Made by a program: the position numbers and the translations under genes. Positions 7,337 to 40,481 of a stretch of DNA of 47,462 bases are shown piece by piece; within the stretch, counting starts at the first letter, position 1; each line of letters starts with the position of its first letter. The notes under the pieces are model-generated. The model saw only the letters and a list, made by a program, of their open reading frames with translations, made no database searches and was not told the origin of the DNA. Source of the DNA: a virus; IMG/VR virus record IMGVR_UViG_3300031578_000074, positions 1-47,462 of that record; one strand, given 5' to 3'.

Positions 7337-7996
7337 TTATTTTATACTTAAATTAGTTTTTCTTTTCAATCCATAAGAAGCCCTCAATTTTTCTATTCTC
7401 CATGTCTTACGCATTGATTCAGCTGCTTTAGTTCTGTTCTGATTACGAAGCATATTTTCGCTTCTGCTTATCATTTCCAAATTCTGAATACCAGGATTAA
7501 GCTGATTACCATCACTGAAAATAACTATCATTCCTTTTGGAATATCACCATATTGTTGCATCCAAATTACCCGGTGTAATGCCTCCCATTTGTTCGGTTC
7601 TGATATTTTCACTTCATAGTACCCATCTTTAGTAATTCTCTTACTGCCTACCGATTTATGATTCTTAGGGATATTCCCCTTCTGAAATTTAGTCGAACTG
7701 CAATGGTTATGATTCTTTCCCTTATTGAATGGTTTATGGCCGGTACCAAATCTCTTTGCATCCATTATCTGTTCTGACTTTTTAAGTTTATGAATGCGCT
7801 TTAATCTTAATATTGTCGATTCTGCAACATTGAATTGTTTGGCAAGCTCATAATTGAACTTATCAGGATATAACTTTTTTATTTCTTCAATCTCAAAAGT
7901 CATCAAATATTTTCTTTCACCGTTTTTTTTAAAAGATAACTTCTTTGAGTTGTTACTTTTTGGAGGGGAAGCAATATATAGTTCAAAGTTTTCCAT
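7337..7996 (-). CDS. HNH homing endonuclease-like protein
   Basis: A 219-residue protein with three parts. An N-terminal helix-turn-helix recognition module lies at about 40-70 (YPDKFNYELAKQFNVAESTILRLKRIHKL). A linker rich in Lys and Asn follows. The C-terminal HNH_3-type nuclease has GYYEVKISEP, ALHRVIWMQQYG and NLEMISRSENMLRN. This layout is typical of free-standing phage homing endonucleases that copy themselves into related genomes. The start codon overlaps the methyltransferase stop as TGATG, so it is cleanly coupled. It sits immediately upstream of the promoter that drives the replication genes. Confidence 0.82.
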   Translation of the reverse strand: MENFELYIASPPKSNNSKKLSFKKNGERKYLMTFEIEEIKKLYPDKFNYELAKQFNVAESTILRLKRIHKLKKSEQIMDAKRFGTGHKPFNKGKNHNHCSSTKFQKGNIPKNHKSVGSKRITKDGYYEVKISEPNKWEALHRVIWMQQYGDIPKGMIVIFSDGNQLNPGIQNLEMISRSENMLRNQNRTKAAESMRKTWRIEKLRASYGLKRKTNLSIK

Positions 7997-8631
7997 CAAA
8001 ATAAATTTAACTGCAATTTATGATTCTCAAAACGCTTGCATCCGGCATCGTAGTAGTCCTTATCCAGCTCACAACCCCAATAATCAAAGCCACCGTCCCA
8101 GCAGGCAATACGTGAACTCTGGCTGCCCATGTGAGAATCGAATATCTTGTCTCCGGGCTTTGCGTAGTTCTTGAGAAGCCATTTATAAAGTTGTACGGGC
8201 TTTTGTGAAATATGTATTCTATCATCTTGATTACTATTTATTTTAACTAATTTTGAATGTTCAATAAATGACGTCCATGCTAATTCAATTTGGCTCATCG
8301 AAGGAATATAAGTCATTTTGTCCCAACAAATCATACAACGTGTTGAATCTAAATATTTAATAAAATAATTACCACCCCATATAATTTGATTTTTTGATAC
8401 TCTTATCAGTTCAGAAAAGTAATAATAATTAGGTGTTTCTTTATCCCATTCCGTTCCTCCCTTTCTTGCAAGTCGCCTTAGATTGTTTCCGCTTTTTGTT
8501 TCAATGGCATTTCTATTATCAAGACCCCCATTTATCCCATACGGCGGATCAACAATAGCCAGCTCAAAGAACTTATCCGGTATGTCCTTCATGTATTCCA
8601 TGCAATCAATATTATATACCTCGCTAATCAT
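7996..8631 (-). CDS. DNA N-methyltransferase (DPPY type)
   Basis: A 211-residue SAM-dependent DNA methyltransferase of the N6-adenine/N4-cytosine class. The catalytic motif is VDPPYGIN with DPPY at 28-31. The SAM-binding region is near the C-terminus (KPGDKIFDSHMGSQSSRIA), a beta-class order in which the FxGxG motif is modified to DSHMGS. ISQKPVQLYKWLLKNY is the typical helix before it. No restriction enzyme is adjacent, so it is an orphan enzyme, probably for protection or regulation. It begins one base below the NinG gene. Confidence 0.92.
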   Translation of the reverse strand: MISEVYNIDCMEYMKDIPDKFFELAIVDPPYGINGGLDNRNAIETKSGNNLRRLARKGGTEWDKETPNYYYFSELIRVSKNQIIWGGNYFIKYLDSTRCMICWDKMTYIPSMSQIELAWTSFIEHSKLVKINSNQDDRIHISQKPVQLYKWLLKNYAKPGDKIFDSHMGSQSSRIACWDGGFDYWGCELDKDYYDAGCKRFENHKLQLNLF

Positions 8632-25237: not shown

Positions 25238-25870
25238 TTAATCCGGGCAGCAAGGAGCCAATAGACTCGCAAGGGCTGCACGCGTGAGAGCAAGTGTACC
25301 ACCTACAAAATATGTCCGTGGTAATTGTGATTCTTTCATGGTGTCCGAACAGCCAGCGGTCAATACATAACCGCCCAGCATCTCAGCATCATTAACATCT
25401 CTTACAACTGCATTGATCTCGATACCAAAATCCCATCCAAGGACTTCAAACACAGTCCTTCCGGCAACTTCCCCGGCTGTCGGGGTAAGATCCTTATTGT
25501 AGTTGTTCTCAATGATGACCATGAAACGGCTGTCTTTAGCATTCTCGATCCATAGCTTATCTTCAGGGGTGTTGTCAAATATCCTGAAAACCAGACCATG
25601 CTCCCAGTTTTTTTGGTACTTCGTCTTAACCATTGCGATAGTATGCTCGTTCGAGAAGTTATACCCCTCCAGACAATACGCGTAGCACGCCGGGGAGGTA
25701 GTCGTCAAAACAAGCTGCGTAAGCAACAGCGAATTTGAAGAATCGAAAGTACTTAAGTCCTTATCGACACAATCATAATTGATAAAATATATCTTATCCT
25801 TAATCCCTGGCACGAGGTTCGCACAGTTCTTAAGGATACATGCGACTATTGCATTACATCCTACTGTCAT
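25238..25870 (-). CDS. probable structural protein, role unknown
   Basis: A 210-residue protein with several cysteines and a beta-rich C-terminal half (GGYVLTAGCSDTMKESQLPRTYFVGGTLALTRAALASLL). It immediately follows the major capsid gene (11-base gap). The position suits a decoration protein, head completion protein or tail tube subunit; I cannot decide between them from sequence. Confidence 0.55.
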   Translation of the reverse strand: MTVGCNAIVACILKNCANLVPGIKDKIYFINYDCVDKDLSTFDSSNSLLLTQLVLTTTSPACYAYCLEGYNFSNEHTIAMVKTKYQKNWEHGLVFRIFDNTPEDKLWIENAKDSRFMVIIENNYNKDLTPTAGEVAGRTVFEVLGWDFGIEINAVVRDVNDAEMLGGYVLTAGCSDTMKESQLPRTYFVGGTLALTRAALASLLAPCCPD

Positions 25871-25881
25871 ATCCGTATGTA

Positions 25882-26970
25882 TTAAGTTCCAACCTGTACT
25901 AACCGGTCATCGATGATCTTTGCATCAAATGCATCTCTCGCCTCGATACGATTGATGCGGCTCCTTTGATCGTAAAATGAATTGATGTTATCAAAGAGTC
26001 CGTTGCATTCCATTCCGATTTGCAGATTTGAAACGGTTGAATAAACTATCCTGTGAGGATTATTATAAGACGTGCCGTTATTCTCGTAAGCACGTATCCA
26101 CTGATCCCATAATGGAATCGAAACGATCTTAATACCGTCCCATGTAGCAAACTCAAGACCATTTATCATCAATGTGTAGTCCTGGAATACTGTTCCCAAT
26201 GCCTGAAGCTGTCTGCGGATACGGTCCATTACTGATTTAGTAACAAGTATGATCCTGTCGGGCTGTGCTGCCAGCTCGGGAAGTGCTGCATCGATAACCG
26301 TATTAAGTGCGGTGTAAGTCAGTAAAGGAGTCGCGACTGTTCCCTGGAGTGCATATGTGACTTGTGTGTTACCTGGTATGGCTGTTAACCTGTCGGTGTC
26401 AGCAGCATAAATAACTGCCAGCTGATGGAAGAAACCATCTATGATATTGAAAAATCCAACATCATAACCATTAGTTATTACACCTCCGGCATTGACATTG
26501 GCGGCAGTGACATCCCCAAACCATGCATGACGAAGGAGCATCTTTTCAATGTCTTTTGTTAGTATGTCGAGTATAAATGCGAATACCTCTGTATTAGTAA
26601 GGTCAAAAGCCTGAACACCGCAACGGGTAGCAAGTTTCATGAGAGTGTCATCGAGTTCGTTTTTACACATATCGATTATGATCTCAATCACCTTAGGCTC
26701 CCATGTCTTTTGTATGGCTGTAAGCTCGTAACACTGAGCCTCAGGGTTACAGTTCTGACCTGCCTTACCTACCAGTCCAAAGGTACCAGGTATGATACCG
26801 ATATGACGGTCATTTTTTATTCCTGTCACAAGCGTATGGAACGCTGACAGTGCCGGGGCTTCGAGAACGGCAGTTACGACGAGTTCATTCAGAGAGCGAA
26901 GTTCATCGGCTGTGAATGTAAGTGCGTCCAAATTGATTGTGCTATTGCACGCTGGGCTTGTTGCTGACAT
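25882..26970 (-). CDS. major capsid protein (HK97-like)
   Basis: A 362-residue protein in the position and size of an HK97-fold capsid subunit. Features include the N-arm leading to a helix (TADELRSLNELVVTAVLEAP), the sequence MLLRHAWFGD seen in Bacteroidota phage capsids, and a C-terminal beta-rich P-domain and A-domain (YTALNTVIDAALPELAAQPDRIILVTKSVMDRI; GIKIVSIPLWDQWI). There is no long N-terminal scaffold domain, which fits the coiled coil fused to the protease upstream. It starts 3 bases below the protease gene. Confidence 0.82.
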   Translation of the reverse strand: MSATSPACNSTINLDALTFTADELRSLNELVVTAVLEAPALSAFHTLVTGIKNDRHIGIIPGTFGLVGKAGQNCNPEAQCYELTAIQKTWEPKVIEIIIDMCKNELDDTLMKLATRCGVQAFDLTNTEVFAFILDILTKDIEKMLLRHAWFGDVTAANVNAGGVITNGYDVGFFNIIDGFFHQLAVIYAADTDRLTAIPGNTQVTYALQGTVATPLLTYTALNTVIDAALPELAAQPDRIILVTKSVMDRIRRQLQALGTVFQDYTLMINGLEFATWDGIKIVSIPLWDQWIRAYENNGTSYNNPHRIVYSTVSNLQIGMECNGLFDNINSFYDQRSRINRIEARDAFDAKIIDDRLVQVGT

Positions 26971-26972
26971 AA

Positions 26973-28070
26973 TTATTTTATTTTATTTGTTTGAATTTCT
27001 TTTACCCTGTCCAGGTCAACCCTGCCGACCTTATTAACGGTTGCAAATTTAGTTCTTGCTTCGGGCTTCCATGAATTTTTTAAGTTGGTCAAGTCTGTGA
27101 CCAATGCCATCGCGGTTGCTTTCATGGCTGCAGCTTCTTCTTTAACTTTTTCGGCTTCTGCCTTTACATCTTCACTCGCGGCAATCTGTGCCTCAAGTGC
27201 TGCAATCTTCTCATTAGCCAGATCCAGCTCTGATTTGTCAGGTTCCTTAACCTCAGTAACTTCACCACCGGCAATAGTTACGGTCTTACCATCAGCCATC
27301 GTAAATGAGCCATCCGGGGTAGCCTTGTCGCCAACGGCTGGCGCGCCTGATTCTTTTTCAAGATTAAACTCTTTCCCGTCCTTATCCTTAAGGGTCTGGT
27401 CAGAGATTCTCGATAGTCCGAGGGCTGTTATCGCTTTGTTGACGGCAGCCTCGACTTTGTCCATAAATGATTTGTCGTCCATCTTTATTAATTTAATTGG
27501 TTTCATAAAAGCATATGCCGTTATCGGCTCAAGTATTTTAGTTGCGAATCCTAGGGAGAGCATATCTTCAGCAGATAGCTTAGTGTCTTCCTTCATGTAT
27601 TCCGCGAGTTTTGTTTCATCCGCCCCGGTTGTCCTGACATAGAAATCAAGTATCTTAGCCTCTTCCTGTCTTAGTGATTCAGCAATCAACTCAAGATCCC
27701 CTGCCTCGTACTTACCGGCCATAGTGTACTCAGGTATATAAGGATTGTGAATAAGACCATCAGCATTCTTCATGAACTCACGTTCTGTTCCGGCAAGGAA
27801 AACAATGGTAGCAATGGAGTAAACTTTACCCTCACCTATTGTCTTTATCTTTTTTCCTGAATTGACAAGTAAGTCATGTATAGCCCAGCCTTCCTGAACA
27901 TCACCACCGCGCGAATTGATCCTTACGGTGATCGCTGTTGCATCTTTGTTCTCATCGAGAAAGTCAGATACAATCTTTGCGGAGATAGTGTCATCAGTAA
28001 CATCAAACATCTCCATCATCTTATCCGGTTCCCCGATATCTCCATATATTTTAAGTACTGCTTCCATCAT
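26973..28070 (-). CDS. ClpP-like prohead protease with coiled-coil scaffold domain
   Basis: A 365-residue protein. The N-terminal 190 residues follow the ClpP/S14 fold: INSRGGDVQEG forms the oxyanion strand, VYSIATIVFLAG carries nucleophile Ser85, and GLIHNPY carries His108. The last 90 residues include a long coiled coil (about 279-329) like a scaffolding domain. The fusion probably guides capsid assembly and then cleaves itself and the coat. I use the ATG ending at 28070 (ATGA overlap with the upstream gene, AGTAGG before it); a TTG 18 bases upstream is less likely. Confidence 0.88.
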   Translation of the reverse strand: MMEAVLKIYGDIGEPDKMMEMFDVTDDTISAKIVSDFLDENKDATAITVRINSRGGDVQEGWAIHDLLVNSGKKIKTIGEGKVYSIATIVFLAGTEREFMKNADGLIHNPYIPEYTMAGKYEAGDLELIAESLRQEEAKILDFYVRTTGADETKLAEYMKEDTKLSAEDMLSLGFATKILEPITAYAFMKPIKLIKMDDKSFMDKVEAAVNKAITALGLSRISDQTLKDKDGKEFNLEKESGAPAVGDKATPDGSFTMADGKTVTIAGGEVTEVKEPDKSELDLANEKIAALEAQIAASEDVKAEAEKVKEEAAAMKATAMALVTDLTNLKNSWKPEARTKFATVNKVGRVDLDRVKEIQTNKIK

Positions 28071-28276
28071 AATCCTACTGTTGTACAATAACCAAGTTCA
28101 CTGGTATCGCATTCCAAAACTTTACAATATGGGTAATCTGATGTTGATTGCGGATAGTCATAATCATGTATCGCGTATAAAACATCATCCATATATGCCC
28201 ACCATGCACAAACTCCTAATGAATCTTCCATATCATTGCTTTTTTGTAAAATTACACCTATCGTATAGATAATCAT
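28067..28276 (-). CDS. hypothetical protein between glycan and head genes
   Basis: A 69-residue acidic protein, Tyr/Asp/Cys rich (VCAWWAYMDDVLYAIHDYDY). The stop overlaps the protease start as ATGA. It follows the glycan cassette by 6 bases. Function unknown; it could belong to either module. Confidence 0.5.
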   Translation of the reverse strand: MIIYTIGVILQKSNDMEDSLGVCAWWAYMDDVLYAIHDYDYPQSTSDYPYCKVLECDTSELGYCTTVGL

Positions 28277-28282
28277 ATAACA

Positions 28283-28804
28283 TTAATTTGTTATATCTTT
28301 CAAGATCCCATCACCAAAAACAACTAATTTACATCCCTCTCTTTCCAGTGCCACAGCCAGATTCTTAAAATGTATCTTTATCTTATCACATATCTTCGCA
28401 GTAAGATTAGGATGATCAACCAGATCCACACCATAAACATGAATCTCTGTTGCACGGTAATGCTTATATGCTACCTGACAAGCCACAAACGGCGAACAGT
28501 ACGATTTATATATCTGTGGTATCTCTAACTTAACTTCATGCTCCGGGTAGTATGTGGTAAGATCCAGCTTCTGAAAGCCCGGCATACAAGACCAATTTGC
28601 TACCTGCGAATAGAATACTTTCGGTTTGCTGTTTTCGATAGTTACTAAGCGTTCACCTTTAAAAATACTAATCCTATCCAGGCAGACTATGACGTCAGTT
28701 TGATGATATTTCCATATATCATTTACGCCAATAGACCAAGTATATTCCGAAGGATTGAATAGACTAAGCGAAGGACCAAGCCCCAGCACTGCTACCGGTC
28801 CCAT
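28283..28804 (-). CDS. DUF115/MAF-like glycan-associated protein
   Basis: A 173-residue protein. The start VAVLGLGPSLSLF resembles the nucleotide-binding loop of DUF115 (motility accessory factor) proteins, which occur beside glycosylation genes, and IHVYGVDLVDHPNL is a similar conserved strand. The N-terminal region reads as a Rossmann-like half. It overlaps the adjacent glycosyltransferase by 13 bases. It may be a divergent sugar transferase; confidence in function is modest. Confidence 0.55.
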   Translation of the reverse strand: MGPVAVLGLGPSLSLFNPSEYTWSIGVNDIWKYHQTDVIVCLDRISIFKGERLVTIENSKPKVFYSQVANWSCMPGFQKLDLTTYYPEHEVKLEIPQIYKSYCSPFVACQVAYKHYRATEIHVYGVDLVDHPNLTAKICDKIKIHFKNLAVALEREGCKLVVFGDGILKDITN

Positions 28805-29472
28805 TTCTGTTCTATCTCAATAAGTCCCTTACGCCTGCGGTCACTCCTGGTACCTGCTGCATCATGTCGAATCAGTAACCCTCCAGGCTCCCCTTCACGG
28901 TTGACAATAGACAGTCCGGGATATTCAATAAGTATCTTGTCAGACAAGCCACGTCGTTTGATCTCGTTCATTGCCTTAAAACAGGGAGCGCCGTGGTGTG
29001 TGTATTGAGGAAACTTATAATAGTTAGCAACATTTATAATCTGAAAAAATGGATGCAGGTATTTTGTTGCCTCATCTCTCCACTGCTGGGAATGGTTGTG
29101 TTTACCAAATCCCCGGTTATCAACATAATCAAATGCACCTACCCCGTAAGTATCTTCATTCATCATGTAAATCATGTCAGCTACCGGACTCTGAAGCATC
29201 TCAATATCAGAATCAAATATTAAAGCATACTTAGTCTCAACCATATTAATACCGGCATGCATCCCCCTACCATGACCTATGTTATATCTATATACCCCGA
29301 CAGTCGTTATGTGCGAAGCAAGTGAGCAGACATACGAATAACAGGGATCATTAATATAAGACCCATCAATAATGATTATCTGCATATCAGGATGAAATTT
29401 TCTTACTGATTCATATGCCTTCTGTATCAGGTCTTTTGTATTTGAACAAACAACAACGCCGGTTATATTCAT
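28792..29472 (-). CDS. GT-A type glycosyltransferase (paralogue of 32833-33468)
   Basis: A 226-residue transferase with a GT-A fold: IIIIDGSYIND, then NIGHGRGMHAGINMVET and the metal-binding DSD motif at 87-89 (ALIFDSDIEML). TKYLHPFFQIINV and GAPCFKAMNEIKRRGL are shared with the gene at 32833-33468, so the two arose by duplication. It should add one sugar from a nucleotide donor; donor and acceptor are not predictable. It overlaps its upstream neighbour by 4 bases. Confidence 0.75.
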   Translation of the reverse strand: MNITGVVVCSNTKDLIQKAYESVRKFHPDMQIIIIDGSYINDPCYSYVCSLASHITTVGVYRYNIGHGRGMHAGINMVETKYALIFDSDIEMLQSPVADMIYMMNEDTYGVGAFDYVDNRGFGKHNHSQQWRDEATKYLHPFFQIINVANYYKFPQYTHHGAPCFKAMNEIKRRGLSDKILIEYPGLSIVNREGEPGGLLIRHDAAGTRSDRRRKGLIEIEQKWDR

Positions 29473-30233
29473 CTGTTTATTATATTAAGATCAGCTCTGC
29501 GCAAGTCACCACCGTAGAACCTTTCATATAATGAAGCATCATCTTTCCCAATCAGCGATTGTAAAACATGCAGGTTAAAATCCTGTCGCATATTCATTGC
29601 CCTGCCATGTCCCGCGCCAATACCCGCACGTCCCGGGAGACCCTTAATGCCTATCGATAGATGATTCTCATAAAACAGATTTACCCCTTGCTTATTGGCC
29701 AGCATGAATAAATGAGCATCAATGAATTTTGTCGGGAAGCACTCACGAAACATAGGAACACATTCTGACGTAAAAGCTACCTGAAACAGACTTGCATGAC
29801 AGTTGTTCCTATTATTAAAATGCCTGCGAAAATAAACATTGTAATAAATAGTATCTATCTCTCCAATAAGTCTGAAGCCATTAATACGAAGCATCATGCG
29901 GTCCAGGTAAATAGGTCCGTAATAATCATCATCCTCAATTATAAATATGGCCTCAATATCTTCCTCCCGGTAATTTTTCATAATAGTGTTAATACCTACC
30001 GATAGGTTTCTCCCTTGTGTGTTATACTGAGGACTCCACAGCGGCAAGGGGTGTTCCTTTATTATTGTCCATCCTTCTCGAAAGTCATCCGGGATAACAT
30101 CAGTTGTCAGTGGCAGGCAGTCATCAATAATTATCCATACCACTTTACCAGTGTAAGTTTGCCGTTTCATAAATCCAGCACAAAGGTTTATCTGTGCTTG
30201 CCTGCTGCCTGTCGGTGTTATTAGAAATATCAT
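29469..30233 (-). CDS. GT-A type glycosyltransferase
   Basis: A 254-residue transferase. The GT-A nucleotide-binding strand WIIIDDC lies at 33-39 and the metal motif is IFIIEDDDYYGPIYL with EDDD at 100-103. The C-terminal third (GIKGLPGRAGIGAGHGRAM) is probably acceptor-side. I use the ATG ending at 30233 (ATGA overlap with the methyltransferase stop); a TTG two codons upstream also opens the frame. It is a likely sugar transferase for a surface or virion glycan. Confidence 0.7.
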   Translation of the reverse strand: MIFLITPTGSRQAQINLCAGFMKRQTYTGKVVWIIIDDCLPLTTDVIPDDFREGWTIIKEHPLPLWSPQYNTQGRNLSVGINTIMKNYREEDIEAIFIIEDDDYYGPIYLDRMMLRINGFRLIGEIDTIYYNVYFRRHFNNRNNCHASLFQVAFTSECVPMFRECFPTKFIDAHLFMLANKQGVNLFYENHLSIGIKGLPGRAGIGAGHGRAMNMRQDFNLHVLQSLIGKDDASLYERFYGGDLRRADLNIINR

Positions 30234-30958
30234 TGCCAAGTATATATTACGTTATTTTCTCCCGTTAGCGGTTTCTCTGGAATAAACTTACCTCCCGGAT
30301 TTAATGCATGTATCTCATCTTTGCTCATTGCCCCGTCACTACGTTGACCCAAAAAATTACAAGTTATATATCCGCGTAAAGATTTTTTGATTATCTTTTC
30401 AGCGTAGATATTTTGGTAACTACGATCAATTTCTGTGAAAGCATAGTTACTTATGCATAGATCATACTGCTCGTCCAACGTAGTTTTAATATTAGTAATC
30501 CCAAAGGCATGAAGATATTTCTCAGCAAGTACCAATACATCGGGCAAGTCAACAAGAGTATATGATTGCCATTCTACGATATCGTTTATGATCTTACATT
30601 GACCACCATAACCAACCCCAATCTCTACTATCTTCATAGTGTCAAGCCTGCCGAATATATTCATCAGATCAGCAAGTACTTTAATATATCTCAACGTAGT
30701 TGGAGAAATCTCAATTTCAATCTCCTTCGTATGATATGTTCTCGGATTACCTACGTGGTCATTTGTTGCAAATTTATTGATATATCGCAATAAATATGGA
30801 AAGTCTCTACCAATTTCAGTCAGATATTCCAGCCCCTGAAGGAAAGATACATGCTCAAGGATAGGAGTATAGTCCTGATGACGTTTAAAATTCTTAAATA
30901 CATCCTCATTTACCACCGCTTTGCGGCATACATTTAAATAAGCATTGTAATCTATCAT
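30230..30958 (-). CDS. putative sugar O-methyltransferase
   Basis: A 242-residue SAM-dependent methyltransferase of the kind annotated putative sugar O-methyltransferase. Motif I is VEIGVGYGGQCKI (residues 111-123), followed by acidic motif YTLVDLPDV. The N-terminal 100 residues are the family's helical cap. It would cap or modify a sugar hydroxyl by methylation. It overlaps the fucosyltransferase gene by 4 bases. Confidence 0.75.
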   Translation of the reverse strand: MIDYNAYLNVCRKAVVNEDVFKNFKRHQDYTPILEHVSFLQGLEYLTEIGRDFPYLLRYINKFATNDHVGNPRTYHTKEIEIEISPTTLRYIKVLADLMNIFGRLDTMKIVEIGVGYGGQCKIINDIVEWQSYTLVDLPDVLVLAEKYLHAFGITNIKTTLDEQYDLCISNYAFTEIDRSYQNIYAEKIIKKSLRGYITCNFLGQRSDGAMSKDEIHALNPGGKFIPEKPLTGENNVIYTWQ

Positions 30959-31731
30959 AATATTATCCAGTTTTTACAGTAAACATCCTTCCAATCATCA
31001 GTAACAGCAGGCCCAAACCACTTTTCAGGTGCATATACTATCTTATTTACATTAGTATTCAGGTAAGCACCCCACCAACTAAATGATGAATTGGCAATTA
31101 TATGATGCTCACATTTTGACATAGTATATAAATCTTCCCAATCTTCTTGTCTTTCAGCAAAAACTAACCGGGGATCCTTTAAGTTTCCCTTGCACCAAGC
31201 TATGTCATCAGAGAAAACAAGAATGCAATCAATCCGCGCCTTGCTATCAAGATCAGATAATGCCCTTGTGTAGTAATCCATCGGAAGTACCGGAAGAAAT
31301 TGAGCCGTATATGGATCAAGATAATCACCCCTTCTAATATGAAGCGAAACGCAATCATTAAATTCGTATTTTCTTACTGCCTTATTGCCAAATAATTCAA
31401 CGATCTCTTCCTTGTGGTTTGCGAAATACTTCTCACTCTGGAAGAATCCCTGGAGGACCATTCTTTCACGATATGGAATAGGATCAAAATTAAAACGTGG
31501 CTCCATGTATCTTATCTGCTCATAGTCTGATCGCTCAACCATGTTATCAGGTAGTTCCTTTAGGTTACGAAATACATTCGTAGTATAGTATCTTGATCCG
31601 TGACCCTGATTGATATTTGGGTTGTCCATAAAGAATGAACACTCATCATTATTGTCCAGTGCCAGCGAGTAAGCTGCTGCTATCTGAAACATCTGATTCC
31701 CTAATCCACCTTTTAAGTGCGTTGTTATCAT
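30955..31731 (-). CDS. alpha-1,2-fucosyltransferase (GT11)
   Basis: A 258-residue enzyme with all GT11 hallmarks: GGLGNQMFQIA at 8-18, the GDP-fucose motif HIRRGDY at 131-137, ILVFSDDIAWC, and NSSFSWWGA at 214-222. GT11 enzymes transfer fucose from GDP-fucose to a sugar in alpha-1,2 linkage, as in blood-group H antigen and bacterial O-antigens. The length equals that of typical bacterial members. No GDP-fucose synthesis genes are nearby, so the donor must come from the host. It is coupled (overlap) to both neighbours. Confidence 0.93.
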   Translation of the reverse strand: MITTHLKGGLGNQMFQIAAAYSLALDNNDECSFFMDNPNINQGHGSRYYTTNVFRNLKELPDNMVERSDYEQIRYMEPRFNFDPIPYRERMVLQGFFQSEKYFANHKEEIVELFGNKAVRKYEFNDCVSLHIRRGDYLDPYTAQFLPVLPMDYYTRALSDLDSKARIDCILVFSDDIAWCKGNLKDPRLVFAERQEDWEDLYTMSKCEHHIIANSSFSWWGAYLNTNVNKIVYAPEKWFGPAVTDDWKDVYCKNWIIL

Positions 31732-32228
31732 ATCGTTGCTGTTAATATATCATCGGCCTGAAAGCCATACTCATACGAGAATTTATAATCCTTATTGATC
31801 TTTAATATCTCTGATTTAATAATCTCAATATCAAAACCAAACATCCCAAAACAACGAATATCATCTATCAAAATAGTATGAGTCTTAATAGGATGATTGC
31901 TTATTATTCTCAATTCACTTATCAGCGGTGACTTGTTTTTTTCTACTGGTTTTGATTCGTGAGCATCCAACCAGAACGTGGTAGGCTCTTTTATCATTGT
32001 CAGTAGATCCCCAAGAACCTTACTTGAATCACCATGTATAAGATGAACATTATCACAATTCTTGAATCGATCTACACAACGATTATATAACGTTTTTGAT
32101 AATTCAATCGAGAATACTGTCTTAAACCCGGCATCTAAGGCATGTTGTATGCCATCACCTACTAACGCACCTGTCTCAATAAAAATATTATTAAGATACT
32201 TTTGAAATACTTCTTTTCCTGTTGGCAT
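31728..32228 (-). CDS. SAM-dependent methyltransferase-like protein
   Basis: A 166-residue Rossmann protein: IFIETGALVGDGIQHALDAG (residues 16-35) is motif I, VFSIELSKTLYNRC holds the acidic ribose contact, and LIHGDSSKVL the next motif. TTFWLDAHES and ILIDDIRCFG suit FkbM-like or related small methyltransferases found in glycan gene clusters. It probably methylates a sugar or lipid-linked product; the target is unknown. It overlaps both neighbours by 1-4 bases. Confidence 0.65.
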   Translation of the reverse strand: MPTGKEVFQKYLNNIFIETGALVGDGIQHALDAGFKTVFSIELSKTLYNRCVDRFKNCDNVHLIHGDSSKVLGDLLTMIKEPTTFWLDAHESKPVEKNKSPLISELRIISNHPIKTHTILIDDIRCFGMFGFDIEIIKSEILKINKDYKFSYEYGFQADDILTATI

Positions 32229-32836
32229 TACCTGGGATGTGAGTTAAATATATTTTGAACATTATTTATATATGGCTCGTAGTCATTTACTTTCATCTCA
32301 ATATCTGAGTATGTCACGCTCTGAGTTGCACATATCGGATCAGTGATAAAGCAATTAAATCGTTCCTGTATCTCGACCACATAAAATACATCTATCACCG
32401 GCCGATGATCCGTCCCTTCGCAGCTTTTAAAAAATCTTTTATGATTCGTAAGAATATAATCATATACTCTCTGAGAATTAAATATACAAGCATGAGCGCA
32501 GTAAGCGCCTTTCATCCTGAAAAGATTATTTGAATACCTCTCTACTGATCTGACATTAGTAGCTCCCAACCAGAGCATATCCCAATCCGCAGGCAGTTGC
32601 GACATTGCCATCTCAACCATGCTCCACGGTTGCAATAGAACACAATCATCTTCAAATATCACAAATGGGAATTCTGTTTGTTCTCGTATAGCCTGAAGAT
32701 GTGAAGCGGTACAACCAAACCACCCGGGATCAGTCTTTATAGCATTGAACCTTTTTACTTCAAAAGGAAAGTTATTCTTACGAAAGTCAACCATCCGCTT
32801 TGGACGGCTTTCAAGATTGATTACTGTTGCCTTCAT
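32228..32836 (-). CDS. GT25-like glycosyltransferase
   Basis: A 202-residue enzyme of the GT25 (LPS galactosyltransferase-like) type. The start VINLESRPKR, the mid motif GCTASHLQAI and the metal motif FVIFEDDCVLL (EDD at 62-64) are all typical. The ATG at 32836 overlaps the upstream stop as ATGA; the upstream extension of the frame is not needed. Family members add hexose to lipooligosaccharide cores. Confidence 0.82.
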   Translation of the reverse strand: MKATVINLESRPKRMVDFRKNNFPFEVKRFNAIKTDPGWFGCTASHLQAIREQTEFPFVIFEDDCVLLQPWSMVEMAMSQLPADWDMLWLGATNVRSVERYSNNLFRMKGAYCAHACIFNSQRVYDYILTNHKRFFKSCEGTDHRPVIDVFYVVEIQERFNCFITDPICATQSVTYSDIEMKVNDYEPYINNVQNIFNSHPR

Positions 32837-33468
32837 ACGCCACCCCTTCCTAATCTGTGAAGTGTACCTCCCCAATGGTGTTTAACATAATGAATACCGT
32901 TATACCAGTCATCGTTTTCATTCGGACCGCCAGAGAAGTCATCATGTACCCACTGCTCATCTTGTATTATCATTATGCCCCTTTCGTGCATATAACGCAT
33001 TGGGGCCATCATTGGCGATTGATAAAGGGAAGGTAAAGGATATTGTAAAGCTATGTTACGATTGATAAGCGCGCATGCAGGGTGAAGATAATTAATCCCT
33101 TCGGTGTCATTGTCTTTTCTGTTACCCATATACACAGCTCCTATACCATAACAATCAGGTCTTAGTTTACTCTGTAAGTCTTCAATGAATCCTCCGTTAT
33201 GAATGATGAGATCATCATCCAGAAGCATTATCTGATCTGTCTCAATATTCTGAATGCCATATGCCATACCCGGGCCATGATGTATGTTATAATCAAAGTG
33301 AAAGATTGACACTTTGTATTTATCTGCATATCCTTTTATCTGTTCAAAATGAGCTTGGTCTGATCCGTCAACTACCCAGCAAGGAAGGTCATAGAATCTT
33401 CTGAATCCTGAAAGCAACCTATCGAGAAGATCAGGAGTGTTGTAATGTACTGTGAGGACTGTAATCAT
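32833..33468 (-). CDS. GT-A type glycosyltransferase (paralogue of 28792-29472)
   Basis: A 211-residue transferase (start at MITVLTVHYNTPD, ATGA overlap). The front CWVVDGSDQ and NIHHGPGMAYGI segments and metal motif LLDDDLII (84-86) fit a GT-A fold. NYLHPACALIN and MAPMRYMHERG align with its paralogue four genes downstream, and both carry a pattern His-Gly-x-Gly-Met at the same distance from DxD. It should add one sugar; specificity unknown. Confidence 0.75.
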   Translation of the reverse strand: MITVLTVHYNTPDLLDRLLSGFRRFYDLPCWVVDGSDQAHFEQIKGYADKYKVSIFHFDYNIHHGPGMAYGIQNIETDQIMLLDDDLIIHNGGFIEDLQSKLRPDCYGIGAVYMGNRKDNDTEGINYLHPACALINRNIALQYPLPSLYQSPMMAPMRYMHERGIMIIQDEQWVHDDFSGGPNENDDWYNGIHYVKHHWGGTLHRLGRGGV

Positions 33469-34109
33469 AATATAATAATATCCGTTGCGTGACAAACATA
33501 ATACTGAGGTGTTAATATCTTAATGCAATTTTCTAAAGGTAATAAATACTTCTTAATCAGATACCAGTCATGGCCATACTTATTGCCCCATTTTACATTT
33601 ACATCCCTGCGGTGTGCTATTGAGCTGGTGCCTATCTTACATATTTCCGGTGTAACTTCCCTCACATTTATAATTATTCCATCGACAAGATAGTCATCGT
33701 AATAAATCCAGTCGTATTTTTCAGTATCAAAATTATCATTTATTATCGTGAGATGATCCTTTCCGATCTGATCATCATGGTCCAGGTAACATATGATATC
33801 ACCTTTCGCCATACGTAACCCTGTCTGTCGTACTTTACCTGAATAAGAGGGTTGCTTTTCAATGTACTTAAATCTGAAACGAGGATCATACTCATATGAC
33901 TCCTTAAATATCTCTTCAGCTCTACGGTTTCCGTCTGATACAATTATAAGTTCTGCATCCCTAAAGTTCTGATTTCCAAATGAATCGCACGCTCTGCGAA
34001 ATTTATACTCTGCATTAGGCGCGCTTGTTATGACAAATTGATCTGTATCTGGTTCCGGGACTGTCTGGTAAGGATCCAGACAAACAGGCATAATAACTGA
34101 TATCCTCAT
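33465..34109 (-). CDS. family-2 glycosyltransferase
   Basis: A 214-residue GT2-type transferase. RISVIMPVC opens the Rossmann-like domain, RACDSFGNQNFRDAELIIVSDG is the classic GT2 pattern, and CYLDHDDQIG holds the metal motif DHDD at 110-113. The C-terminus is short, so it is a minimal soluble transferase. It is the first glycan gene in the cassette, translationally coupled (ATGA) to the 79-residue gene below the tape measure. Confidence 0.85.
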   Translation of the reverse strand: MRISVIMPVCLDPYQTVPEPDTDQFVITSAPNAEYKFRRACDSFGNQNFRDAELIIVSDGNRRAEEIFKESYEYDPRFRFKYIEKQPSYSGKVRQTGLRMAKGDIICYLDHDDQIGKDHLTIINDNFDTEKYDWIYYDDYLVDGIIINVREVTPEICKIGTSSIAHRRDVNVKWGNKYGHDWYLIKKYLLPLENCIKILTPQYYVCHATDIIIL

Positions 34110-34345
34110 ACTTCTTTCTCCATGTTTTTAATGATTCGTAAAATTGTAACATCATGTAGCCGGTAATCCTCTGATATAAACCCGACAGCCATATATTTTT
34201 TATAACCTTGTTTCCTGTAATAATCATACCTGCAGTATAGTTCAAAATGTCTGATGATCGATGCTGGTAATATACCAAGCTTTACTTGTTCTCGAATCCC
34301 TGCCGGGGTTAAAATATTTGTATTTATATATTCAAACTTGGTCAT
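34106..34345 (-). CDS. hypothetical protein linking tape measure and glycan cassette
   Basis: A 79-residue basic protein (LTPAGIREQVKLGILPASIIRHFELYCRYDYYRKQGYKK). The first part looks like a helical DNA- or protein-binding unit; no family recognised. ATGA overlaps at both ends place it between the tape-measure gene and the first glycosyltransferase. Confidence 0.5.
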   Translation of the reverse strand: MTKFEYINTNILTPAGIREQVKLGILPASIIRHFELYCRYDYYRKQGYKKYMAVGFISEDYRLHDVTILRIIKNMEKEV

Positions 34346-36309
34346 ATGTTAGCTCGTACCTCCACTTTATTTTTAGCTGCTATCCTTGCATTTATGTCCT
34401 CCACGGTAACTATCGGTGCTGGCATCTTTGCGAAGGCTGCCGCAATATCTGCTGCTGTTAACATATTATCCTGTGGTGCTGCATTAAGTTGTGTCTGTGT
34501 TAACTGAGGTTGTGTGACAAATGATGGTGCCACCTGTGATGCGAATGTCCTCTGTGCTGCCGGGGAAGATGATATTGATGTTGACATACCTCTGCCTGAA
34601 TCACCTGGTAATCCAGATTTAACCTCCATTATTTTTTTCACATTAGCCAGTCCCGTTAATATAGTTGCTGCCATTGCTATATAACTAAACGGGGGAGGAT
34701 ATGTTGCCAGTGCTTTTGTTGCTGCTGCATATGTTGATATGGTTGCCTGTGCCACAGCTGCGGCCTTGCCTATCGCTGTCTGTTCGCCAAAGATAGCAGC
34801 AATCGATCCGGCAGCATCAGCCATTATCATCTGTTTACCTTCTGCTGTTAATTCTGCTAACTGTATCTCAGCTTTTGCATATTTCTTTTGAACCTGGAGA
34901 ACACCTTCGCCAATGTCTTCAGCCGCTTTTATCTCTTCATATTTCTTCTCATTCACTAACTCCTTAAGAGTCATGATCTGCTCTGTCGTTCTGTCTTTTA
35001 ATGCTTGTAATTCCTGATCTGCCAGTTCCTTTGCAGCCGTAACATCAAACCCGGATAACTTACTTATGTTTCGCTTCTGCTCTTCAAAGAATCTTGTCTC
35101 AGCATCGAATATCTTTGCGTAATATCCCTCCAATTCTTTAAATTTTTCCTCATTATTATCCCTTACTAACTGTAATTCTCTGCTTGCATTAGCCTGTTGT
35201 GCATCGGTCATCCTTAAAAATCCGAGAATATCCTCACGTCTTAATCCATTCTTACCGGCCAAATAATCAGCTTCTGTATTAAGTTTATCATTGGCAAATT
35301 TCTTTTGCATTTCAACCTCTTCAAGACCTATTGCCATAGCCTCAACGAGTGCTTTCCTTCTTTCTTCAGTTGACTTTGTTCTGTCCTGTGCTGTATATTC
35401 CAGCTTTGCAATCTTCAACCTGTTCTCTGCTGCCTGTGATACATAATTATTCTCAGAATCTTCTATCCTATCCAATGCATAAACGTAATCATATGCCGCT
35501 TTAGTTGCCTCTTTCAACTGATCCCCGATACCTGTAAATGCTTCCTTCATGTCTTCTCCAGCCTTCTTCCATTCCCCTTTGAATATATTTTGTATAGCAC
35601 TTGTCACAGCGATTAACCTTTGCCTGAATACATCTAATATAGCTTTTAACTGCTCAAATCTGGCAGCTAATGCAGTGGCTCCGCTATCTGTTGACTTGAA
35701 TGCCTTTACGAGTAGTGCTATTGCCCCGACTATTGCTGTGATGAGTAACACAATAGGATTGGCAAGTAGTACCTTAGTATATCTTGAAATAGCCGTAGCT
35801 GCCTGCCCAATCGGTCCCGGGATGGCAGCGAACTTAGCAGCCGATCCCTCAATGGCTTCACTGTAAAGACCAACTGAGGATCTCCCATCACTCTGTGCTT
35901 TATCGTATTGAATTATTGCATCCTTAGTAGCCTTGATCTTTTTTGTCTGCTCTACATATAAAGAGTTCAATCGCATCACTCCCTTTGCATCAGTTACGTA
36001 TGCATTGCCCAACTTGCCTAATGCTTTCTGCTGTAAGCTCAGTACTTCACCCAGCTGCTTCCGACTTCCTGTCTCTGACTTTATTGCTGCCGTGAATACC
36101 TGAACTTCCTTTTGTGCATCCCTGTATGTTTTCTCTGCTGCTTTAAGTGCTGCATTATTCTTTTCAACCTCTTCACGCGGAGTGTCTTTCGACATCTGCA
36201 TGTTGGCCAGCTTTAACTTATCAACTTCCTCTTTAGCCTTCGCGGCAGCCTTTGCATACTGGTCAAGATTACTCTCTACATTAACAAGATATTTCTTTTC
36301 TTCTGTCAT
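34342..36309 (-). CDS. tail tape measure protein
   Basis: A 655-residue protein that sets tail length and is threaded through the tail tube. It is dominated by charged helices with heptad pattern (about 10-115, 280-490), has a hydrophobic membrane-like segment around 180-205 (LLANPIVLLITAIVGAIALLV), and has an Ala/Thr/Pro/Gln-rich C-terminus. Tape measure of this length implies a tail of roughly 100 nm by the usual 1.5 angstrom per residue rule. No tail sheath gene is seen, so the tail is probably non-contractile. Confidence 0.85.
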   Translation of the reverse strand: MTEEKKYLVNVESNLDQYAKAAAKAKEEVDKLKLANMQMSKDTPREEVEKNNAALKAAEKTYRDAQKEVQVFTAAIKSETGSRKQLGEVLSLQQKALGKLGNAYVTDAKGVMRLNSLYVEQTKKIKATKDAIIQYDKAQSDGRSSVGLYSEAIEGSAAKFAAIPGPIGQAATAISRYTKVLLANPIVLLITAIVGAIALLVKAFKSTDSGATALAARFEQLKAILDVFRQRLIAVTSAIQNIFKGEWKKAGEDMKEAFTGIGDQLKEATKAAYDYVYALDRIEDSENNYVSQAAENRLKIAKLEYTAQDRTKSTEERRKALVEAMAIGLEEVEMQKKFANDKLNTEADYLAGKNGLRREDILGFLRMTDAQQANASRELQLVRDNNEEKFKELEGYYAKIFDAETRFFEEQKRNISKLSGFDVTAAKELADQELQALKDRTTEQIMTLKELVNEKKYEEIKAAEDIGEGVLQVQKKYAKAEIQLAELTAEGKQMIMADAAGSIAAIFGEQTAIGKAAAVAQATISTYAAATKALATYPPPFSYIAMAATILTGLANVKKIMEVKSGLPGDSGRGMSTSISSSPAAQRTFASQVAPSFVTQPQLTQTQLNAAPQDNMLTAADIAAAFAKMPAPIVTVEDINARIAAKNKVEVRANI

Positions 36310-38618: not shown

Positions 38619-38893
38619 ATCTTAAGCCATTGGTAAAATTTATTGTAGATCATTGACATCAGTATCCCTGCAGAACAGAAAAATAATAATTCAATGATAT
38701 CAAATTGCTTTGTGATAATAAAATACCAAAAGCATGCCTGCCCGGTGAAGCACATAAAACAACCTCCCAGGGGCTTGTAAAGAAACAATGGTAGTCTGAA
38801 TATTAACTTCTGATAAAAGTAAAACAGTTTACCCTCTTCCCCTAAAGCGCAGAACATAAAAGCAATCAATGATATTTTAATTATCTCAAACAT
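38615..38893 (-). CDS. small membrane protein, DUF1360-like motif
   Basis: A 92-residue protein with two or three membrane segments (about 3-16, 45-60, 66-83). GGCFMCFTGQACFWYF has a CxxC-x6-C-x-W pattern similar to DUF1360 proteins. A membrane protein embedded among tail genes is unusual; it may help injection or lysis. It overlaps the tail-tip gene by 4 bases. Confidence 0.55.
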   Translation of the reverse strand: MFEIIKISLIAFMFCALGEEGKLFYFYQKLIFRLPLFLYKPLGGCFMCFTGQACFWYFIITKQFDIIELLFFCSAGILMSMIYNKFYQWLKI

Positions 38894-40481
38894 CTCTTAC
38901 TAATCTTATATATTGACCTAAACCTTTTGCTCTATCGGCAGAATAAAATCCGGCAAAATTATAAAGAAAATATCTTGATGCTACCTTTGCCGGATCGACT
39001 CCCTCGTCTGATCCAAGTAACATTGAACCATCCCCAATATTCAAAAAGGCACCGTCAGTGTCGCGTCTTACCCCACCTGGCAGTAATGTAAATCCAGTTA
39101 CATTTGTAGCTCCTGTATTGGGAGAATTCCAATGTGTCGTTCCTGCCTCTTTTAAAGGACCACCCGATAAAGCTTCGACTACATTAATCTCATCCGAAAG
39201 AGTTTGGAAATCTATATGGGTAGGTACTCTCCATCCCGCTTCTTGCACCCCGCCTCTTTCCAGATAAGCGAACCCACTTACATTGCTTACTGCATACCAA
39301 TTATATATAGCTCCATAAATGGCTTTATAAGTAGCCTCATCATTATCATAATAACACATCGCACCAATGACATCAGCAACCCAATCACCAGCATCTGTTA
39401 TCACTGTTATTGGATCACCGTTAGCATACTTCGTTGGCCGATAGTTTTCAACTATCCATTCCTGCGCTCCTATTATAACTGAAGTATAGATATTCCCATC
39501 TATGTCTGTTAATATCGGAGAAGCAACTACATCTTTTATTAGTCTTACCGAAAACCAATTTGCTTTCGGAAGTGTGAACGCTCCTATTGCAGCGGAATTA
39601 TAACCTATTTGGATTGCCCCGGCGCCCCATGAATTAATATCATCCACAGTCCAGAAATCCGTATAACTCTTAATCCCATAATATTCATCAACAGCATTTG
39701 CCCATCCTGATCCCAATGCTTTGAAGCCATAAGTATCTACGCCCCCTGTATTCGGATCACTCCAATGATCTGTACCCGCTTCTTTTAATCTTCCCCCTCC
39801 ATTAGTTATATCACCAATAAAAGCAATCAACGTGTACCATTCTGCGCGCGTAGGAACGTGCCATCCGGGAGGTGCAAAGCCGACTGTTGTAATCTGATAC
39901 CAAGTATAAAGACCTCCATAGATCGCTCTGTTTGCTTCGTTATTAGCATAAACCTTTGAATTCGGAAAGGTAGATGCAACATTCTTACAAGCCCATACCT
40001 GAGTACCAATTGTAATACCACAAGCATCAGGATCAGGAACAGGATCAACAACAGGTATTTCAGCGACCGGGGAATATCCTGTTAAGTATGATATTGCTTT
40101 ACTGCCTATGATAGCCGTTATCTCTGCTTCATAACCATTGATCTTATTGTCGTATATCTTCATTGACCCTGGCTCAATCCTTACATTTGCCCAGCCATCG
40201 ACAGTAAGCAGATATACTTCCCGCGTGTGTAATATTGTTTTTATGGCTTGTATCTGAGTATAGATAACCTGCCCTGTACTCATGCGGATAGTTCGTGTGC
40301 TGATAGTTCTATACTCTTCCCCTTCTGTTACCATTATCGTTTCACCGGGAAGAAAAAACCAGTAATGCCATCCGTTATACCACCATCTGAGATAATACCC
40401 CTTGCATGGCTTTCCTATGAGAACATTTACCAGGCGATAGGCATCTAAGCCCCAACCTGCGCCACATGATTCTATTGTCAT
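38886..40481 (-). CDS. tail-tip protein with two FISUMP repeats
   Basis: A 531-residue protein. Residues 30-43 are YLRWWYNGWHYWFF, shared with the other tail-tip protein. From about 150 there are two FISUMP (Fibrobacter succinogenes major paralogous) domains, each with IGxQxWxxxN, GxLYxWY-like, GWHVPTxxEW-like and LKEAGTxHW motifs, at about 152-316 and 325-530. FISUMP domains are secreted binding modules. This is a good candidate for a receptor-binding protein. Confidence 0.85.
   Translation of the reverse strand: MTIESCGAGWGLDAYRLVNVLIGKPCKGYYLRWWYNGWHYWFFLPGETIMVTEGEEYRTISTRTIRMSTGQVIYTQIQAIKTILHTREVYLLTVDGWANVRIEPGSMKIYDNKINGYEAEITAIIGSKAISYLTGYSPVAEIPVVDPVPDPDACGITIGTQVWACKNVASTFPNSKVYANNEANRAIYGGLYTWYQITTVGFAPPGWHVPTRAEWYTLIAFIGDITNGGGRLKEAGTDHWSDPNTGGVDTYGFKALGSGWANAVDEYYGIKSYTDFWTVDDINSWGAGAIQIGYNSAAIGAFTLPKANWFSVRLIKDVVASPILTDIDGNIYTSVIIGAQEWIVENYRPTKYANGDPITVITDAGDWVADVIGAMCYYDNDEATYKAIYGAIYNWYAVSNVSGFAYLERGGVQEAGWRVPTHIDFQTLSDEINVVEALSGGPLKEAGTTHWNSPNTGATNVTGFTLLPGGVRRDTDGAFLNIGDGSMLLGSDEGVDPAKVASRYFLYNFAGFYSADRAKGLGQYIRLVRDV

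Follow-up and report, generated by a model that had tools for sequence, protein, structure and literature searches.

Why should a phage carry, among the genes for its own particle, nine genes that appear to build a glycan, and to what would that glycan be attached? The question is raised by an uncultured phage whose entire IMG/VR virus record (IMGVR_UViG_3300031578_000074, 47,462 bases) was analyzed and is referred to below as the window. The original prediction described the nine genes as a cassette inserted in the virion operon, which must use host sugar donors and decorates either the virion proteins or the host surface.

Results

The virion genes of the window all lie on the minus strand, in the order terminase, tail genes, tape measure, g10, g9 to g1, a small ORF, head maturation protease, probable capsid protein, a conserved 210-residue protein and portal (phrog_11226, 3.3e-76); all coordinates given below refer to this strand. 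The cassette (g9 to g1) occupies positions 28283-34109, with the tape-measure gene on one side and the head maturation protease gene on the other, and all nine predicted ORFs are found there. On the upstream side, the gene for the tail tape measure protein (34342..36309; phrog_3336, E 7.7e-14) is followed by g10 (34106..34345), a small conserved ORF that matches a family of unknown function (phrog_17790, E 0.005), bounds the variable island described below and is present with 33-81% identity in nearly all relatives reaching that far. On the downstream side, the gap between g1 and the protease contains a small ORF (28067..28276), which overlaps the protease start and has 33-64% identity in some relatives. 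It is followed by the ClpP-type head maturation protease (26973..28088; phrog_94, 7.6e-36) and by two candidate acceptors: the probable major capsid protein (25882..26970), assigned by position and conservation since its family is unnamed (phrog_38780, 4.5e-59), and the adjoining conserved virion-module protein (25238..25870; phrog_21217), with 52-93% identity in relatives.

The predicted linkage of the genes by overlaps proved to be complete. With better start codons for g3 (30233), g7 (32836) and g8 (33468, giving a 4 bp overlap), all eight cassette junctions overlap by 1-13 bp, mostly by 4 bp of the ATGA type; g9 also overlaps g10, and g10 overlaps the tape-measure gene. Judging from the overlaps and the position, the cassette would be transcribed late together with the virion genes. 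Promoter and terminator scans of the cassette region gave the same counts as shuffled sequence.

The family assignments of the original prediction hold for most of the genes, with unequal strength. Pfam matches above the curated cut-off assign to the GT2 family g9 (33465..34109; PF00535, 3.8e-13), g8 (32833..33468; PF00535, 7e-8) and g2 (28792..29472; PF00535, 8.7e-11), the last having an invariant FDSD motif in the alignment. GT11 is equally clear in g5 (30955..31731; PF01531, 2.2e-31; phrog_2644, 2.5e-50), which scores 109.6 bits against a cut-off of 23.9 and covers profile positions 32-295 of 298; judged from this family, g5 probably adds a fucose. g4 (30230..30958) is a putative sugar O-methyltransferase (TIGR04371, 1.2e-21, above the cut-off). 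The GT25 assignment of g7 (32228..32836) is weak, as PF01755 gives 16.6 bits (0.0072) and does not reach its cut-off of 24; the gene also matches phrog_24091 (2.4e-10) and the glucosyltransferase PHROG phrog_2835 (3.3e-6). g6 (31728..32228) has no significant match in family profile searches and is methyltransferase-like by eye. No family match by sequence is found for g3 (29469..30233), which contains an invariant EDDD motif; its AlphaFold model (pLDDT 87) has the GT-A fold, with the best match to the WrtF fucosyltransferase (Z 17.9), followed by TarS (Z 17.4). The original prediction took two GT-A enzymes for paralogues; there is indeed a match between g8 and g2, though a weak one, and g8 as a query picks up g2 orthologues at 23-36% identity.

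The last gene, g1 (28283..28804), was predicted to be DUF115-like, and this is retained on the predicted fold, below the Pfam cut-off. The best Pfam model is MptE-like and is found in 3/21 members with E 0.061, which is not significant; the sequence profiles of g1 and g3 have no match among solved structures. Foldseek alone found no useful match for the g1 model (best E 0.024, TM about 0.3). A second look at structures with VIA-align matched the AF2 model of g1 (pLDDT 93) best with the Maf glycosyltransferase 5mu5 (Z 13.3, 160 of 173 residues, rmsd 3.1), then with the MptE HPPK (Z 11.2) and CstII (Z 9.9). All 173 residues lie inside the fold of the Maf central domain; the N- and C-terminal domains of the three-domain Maf architecture are absent. 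The Maf central domain is known to resemble Cst-II, and Maf enzymes O-glycosylate Ser/Thr of flagellin (PMC11339370). Invariant residues in the g1 alignment include G8, G10, S12, N28, D29, S104, D127 and H145. We presume these to match the nucleotide-binding and catalytic positions of CstII. The fold is also common to pterin and thiamine pyrophosphokinases, and the glycosyltransferase function of g1 is predicted from the modelled fold. g1 can thus be described as a minimal protein of the Maf/DUF115/GT42 fold, and it may be among the smallest Maf-type domains.

Relatives were fetched from IMG/VR with the capsid protein, g3 and g1 as queries. The counts are based on distinct protease sequences: for g1, the 57 that have over 1.2 kb of upstream sequence, and for g2 and g3, the 38 that have over 2.6 kb. 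Beside the protease and capsid genes, g1 is found in 55/57 distinct relatives, g3 in 38/38 and g2 in 36/38. All genomes except the two without g2 keep the order g10, island, g3, g2, g1, protease, capsid. Two apparent absences of g1 (L017 and L022) are contigs ending near that place, and in L017 a looser threshold reveals an edge fragment of the gene. A megablast search of phage records gave no match for the virion module, nor did tblastn with the queries g1, g2 and g3 at 1e-5 against 50,697 phage records.

Between the tape measure and g3, the 28 genomes that span the island contain 0.6-5.6 kb of variable DNA. The 153 genes called there fall into 47 clusters, including 18 singletons (the cluster with g9 of the window counts 7 genes), and over half of the genome pairs have no island gene cluster in common. 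The contents are GT2, GT92-type and other glycosyltransferases, methyltransferases, DegT, C-methyltransferases, a B12-binding radical SAM protein and sugar-nucleotide enzymes (Polysacc_synt_2 and RmlD/Epimerase). The cassette is a lineage-wide feature of the whole phage group, in which only the middle part is exchangeable, and it cannot be called inserted. The expectation of a variable cassette between conserved flanks is borne out for the island; the g3-g2-g1 core is conserved beside the head genes.

The window cassette contains no sugar-nucleotide, flippase or polymerase gene, in agreement with the predicted lack of lipid-carrier machinery. The sugar donors in this phage would be those of its host, as was proposed; as a general rule the proposal fails, since some relatives would supply steps of their own through the Polysacc_synt_2, RmlD/Epimerase, DegT and C-methyltransferase genes of their islands.

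Core and island evolve independently. In 24 genomes, distances between the core genes correlate with those between capsid, protease and portal genes (Mantel rho 0.34-0.62, p <= 0.006). No such correlation with the core or the capsid is seen for the island content (rho -0.13 to 0.04, p > 0.3). The tape measure and g10, which are linked on the other side of the island, exhibit little correlation of the core-head kind. The correlation of the core with the head genes may reflect, at least in part, physical linkage instead of function. By virion genes, the nearest relative of the window is contig 3300031565_000088 (MCP 89%, portal 88%, g1 77%), which has none of g4-g8 in common with the window and only 62% identity in g3 and 56% in g2. 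By cassette it is 3300037424_000332 (g8 86%, g7 82%, g3 80%), which is more distant outside the cassette (MCP 77%, tape measure 34%). The window thus shows an exchange of the block g9-g2, in which g1 remained linked to the head genes. The median omega (dN/dS) is 0.09-0.12 in core and island genes alike, and the capsid and protease genes are also under strong purifying selection.

Discussion

We consider it probable that, late in infection, the cassette enzymes work in the cytoplasm and build a sugar chain, made of a conserved core and swapped outer sugars, on at least one of the phage's own virion proteins. The scheme is drawn from the gene content, order, tight coupling and conservation, from the independent behavior of core and island, and from the predicted folds; the enzyme activities, their order of action and the virion-protein acceptor are presumed. 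Most likely g1 would attach the first sugar to the protein, and g3 and g2 would lengthen the chain into a short core of the same kind throughout the phage group. The window's island enzymes g9, g8, g7 and g5 and the methyltransferases g4 and g6 would then add and cap the outer sugars, which would be partly methylated. Swapping of the island genes among phages would give a different outer glycan to each phage. The virion is the favored acceptor because virion proteins are what the cytoplasm produces in bulk late in infection.

It is tempting to go further and propose, as a possibility that we do not rate as probable, a dedicated phage machinery for protein glycosylation, corresponding in prokaryotes to that behind the chlorovirus capsid glycan. 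A head protein would receive the conserved core chain from the minimal Maf-like enzyme, and the exchangeable island would provide each phage's own outer glycan. The capsid N-glycans of chloroviruses (PBCV-1) have a core common to all members and extra sugars that are the signature of each virus, and they are made by virus-encoded glycosyltransferases (PMC7826918). Chloroviruses infect eukaryotic algae, their glycans are N-linked and known, whereas here the glycan is only inferred.

Among phages, mycobacteriophages are known to have glycosyltransferases that act on capsid and tail-tube proteins, according to the mention of Freeman 2023 in PMC12363180. Che8, Corndog and Myrna resemble our case in encoding glycosyltransferases, there reported to glycosylate virion proteins and here predicted from the genes; they have one or two such enzymes, compared with up to nine genes, methyltransferases and a core-plus-island layout in the group considered here. 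The comparison by sequence with Che8 gp110, Corndog gp38 and the Myrna glycosyltransferases covered g1-g3, for which the tblastn search of phage records mentioned above gave no match.

The main rival explanation is late remodeling of the host surface, in which soluble glycosyltransferases at the inner membrane would extend a capsule precursor or the core of the LPS and block superinfection or re-adsorption of progeny. Bacterial surface loci typically contain GT2, GT11 and GT25-like enzymes and sugar methyltransferases, rapid exchange of glycosyltransferase sets would be expected, and a host-surface role was proposed for glycosyltransferases of pelagimyophages (PMC7029224) and Gratiaviridae (PMC8008677). 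Nevertheless, we consider this explanation unlikely. No product of the window cassette and only 2/153 island products have a TM-like segment, and the flippase GtrA (PF04138) is absent from 15 records, in a search whose control profile gave matches. These observations fit soluble, nucleotide-sugar-dependent enzymes in the cytoplasm, where virions assemble. Integrase (PF00589) and resolvase (PF00239) are absent from the same number of records (15, possibly incomplete; the controls gave matches), which makes a lasting serotype conversion unlikely. The Gtr serotype-conversion clusters are similar in that phage glycosyltransferases change glycans, and g2 and g9 match "GtrB-like" PHROGs; they differ in the GtrA flippase, membrane glycosyltransferase and integrase, all missing here. 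In addition, the cassette position is locked to the head genes and the core evolves with them.

A comparable arrangement in a second head lineage also argues against the host surface. In this second group (L072, L083-L116), which has different connector and tail genes, a DUF115-like gene, glycosyltransferase, epimerase and methyltransferase genes, a g3 homologue and a sulfotransferase gene lie directly before the connector genes; in one member, DUF115-like, GT8 and methyltransferase domains are fused in a protein of 976 residues. The DUF115-like protein matches PmgP of P1, HdmB of P7 and proteins of Caulobacter jumbo phages. In P7, the sialyltransferase-like hdmB and the glycosyltransferase hdmD are annotated in one head-morphogenesis operon. 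The pmgP/hdmB operon of P1/P7 and the "alpha-2,3-sialyltransferase" clusters of Caulobacter jumbo phages thus place a DUF115/sialyltransferase-like gene with glycosyltransferase or methyltransferase genes amid head and tail genes. These proteins are related to the DUF115-like protein of the second group and not detectably to g1; hhalign of g1 against this family gave a probability of 6%, and we claim no kinship. Taken together, the comparison of genomes favors the virion over the host surface as the target, short of proof.

Hypermodification of phage DNA by the cassette glycosyltransferases as a protection against restriction is far less probable still, and we rejected it as the main role of the cassette. 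Phage glycosyltransferases are able to glycosylate DNA bases, according to the reference to Pyle 2024 in PMC12619734. The window also encodes a C5 cytosine methylase (1530-2366). Against this, the cassette sits in the virion module, away from the replication genes, and a thymidylate synthase homologue (PF00303, the hydroxymethylase fold) is absent from 15 records, its control having given matches; the TET/JBP oxygenase PF12851 was not found in a search whose control matched nowhere either. Base glycosylation is not known to use as many as nine enzymes in varying sets.

The resemblance of the cassette enzymes to host polysaccharide genes might suggest that a polysaccharide locus of the host was misassembled into the record or transduced. 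This is refuted by the recurrence of the core at the same position in dozens of contigs, assembled independently from many samples, by a colinear contig of phage size in a Bacteroidales MAG, by the absence of g1 from 394 other Bacteroidota genomes and by purifying selection.

Few phages are known to glycosylate their virions, and those have one or two enzymes for it. Throughout the uncultured group described here, which comes from many environmental samples, a three-enzyme core is fixed to the head genes and the rest is swapped. If the glycan is built on the virion as we propose, phages of the same lineage might differ in the type of surface sugar as bacteria differ in O-antigen, and the core/island pattern suggests that the sugar type can be a selected, variable surface trait of the phage particles. 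The genes g1-g3 and the candidate acceptors are a defined set for a direct test of phage protein-linked glycan assembly.

A Bacteroidales host is likely for the phage group, considering the MAG contig mentioned above and the nearest host-named terminases, which belong to phages of Parabacteroides, Phocaeicola and Bacteroides. A Fib_succ_major protein in the tail region is also consistent with such a host.

Glycan cassettes in other phages

The virion module of a second phage group, whose connector and tail genes differ from those of the window's group, carries a separate glycan cassette directly upstream of the head-tail connector genes (for example, L086:6978-11379, L098:4912-11388 and L072:5976-11352 in the related records fetched). 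It combines a DUF115-like gene, variable glycosyltransferase, epimerase and methyltransferase genes, a homologue of the core GT-A glycosyltransferase g3, and a sulfotransferase; in L098, several of these domains are fused in one protein of 976 aa. The DUF115-like protein of this group is matched by the sialyltransferase-like hdmB of phage P7, which shares with hdmD, a glycosyltransferase, an operon annotated as head morphogenesis (NC_050152, 78003-86566).

Distant homologues of g1, the predicted minimal Maf/DUF115/GT42-fold protein of the window cassette, are found in three other phages, L167, L169 and L170 (28-35%). L169 additionally encodes a distantly related capsid protein (34%), on the strand opposite to g1.

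Variation within and around the cassette

Several relatives have an extra gene of 227-302 aa between g1 and the protease (L005:7810-8643, L007:7628-8536, L013:5755-6438), for which no family could be assigned. An enzyme unusual for a phage, a B12-binding radical SAM protein, recurs in the variable islands between the tape measure and g3; it has 11 members, about 373 aa long (L032:5593-6714 and ten relatives). The window tape measure gene (34342-36309) diverges far more quickly than its neighbours, the median bit-score ratio being 0.11 versus 0.45-0.70, and it shows no correlation with the head genes.

Other genes of the window

The early region encodes an N6/N4 DNA methylase (7996-8631) and a C5 cytosine methylase (1530-2366); the profile match of the latter extends no further than position 174 of 324. 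A tail-region protein (38886-40481) has two Fib_succ_major matches and is located where a structural or receptor-contact protein would be expected.
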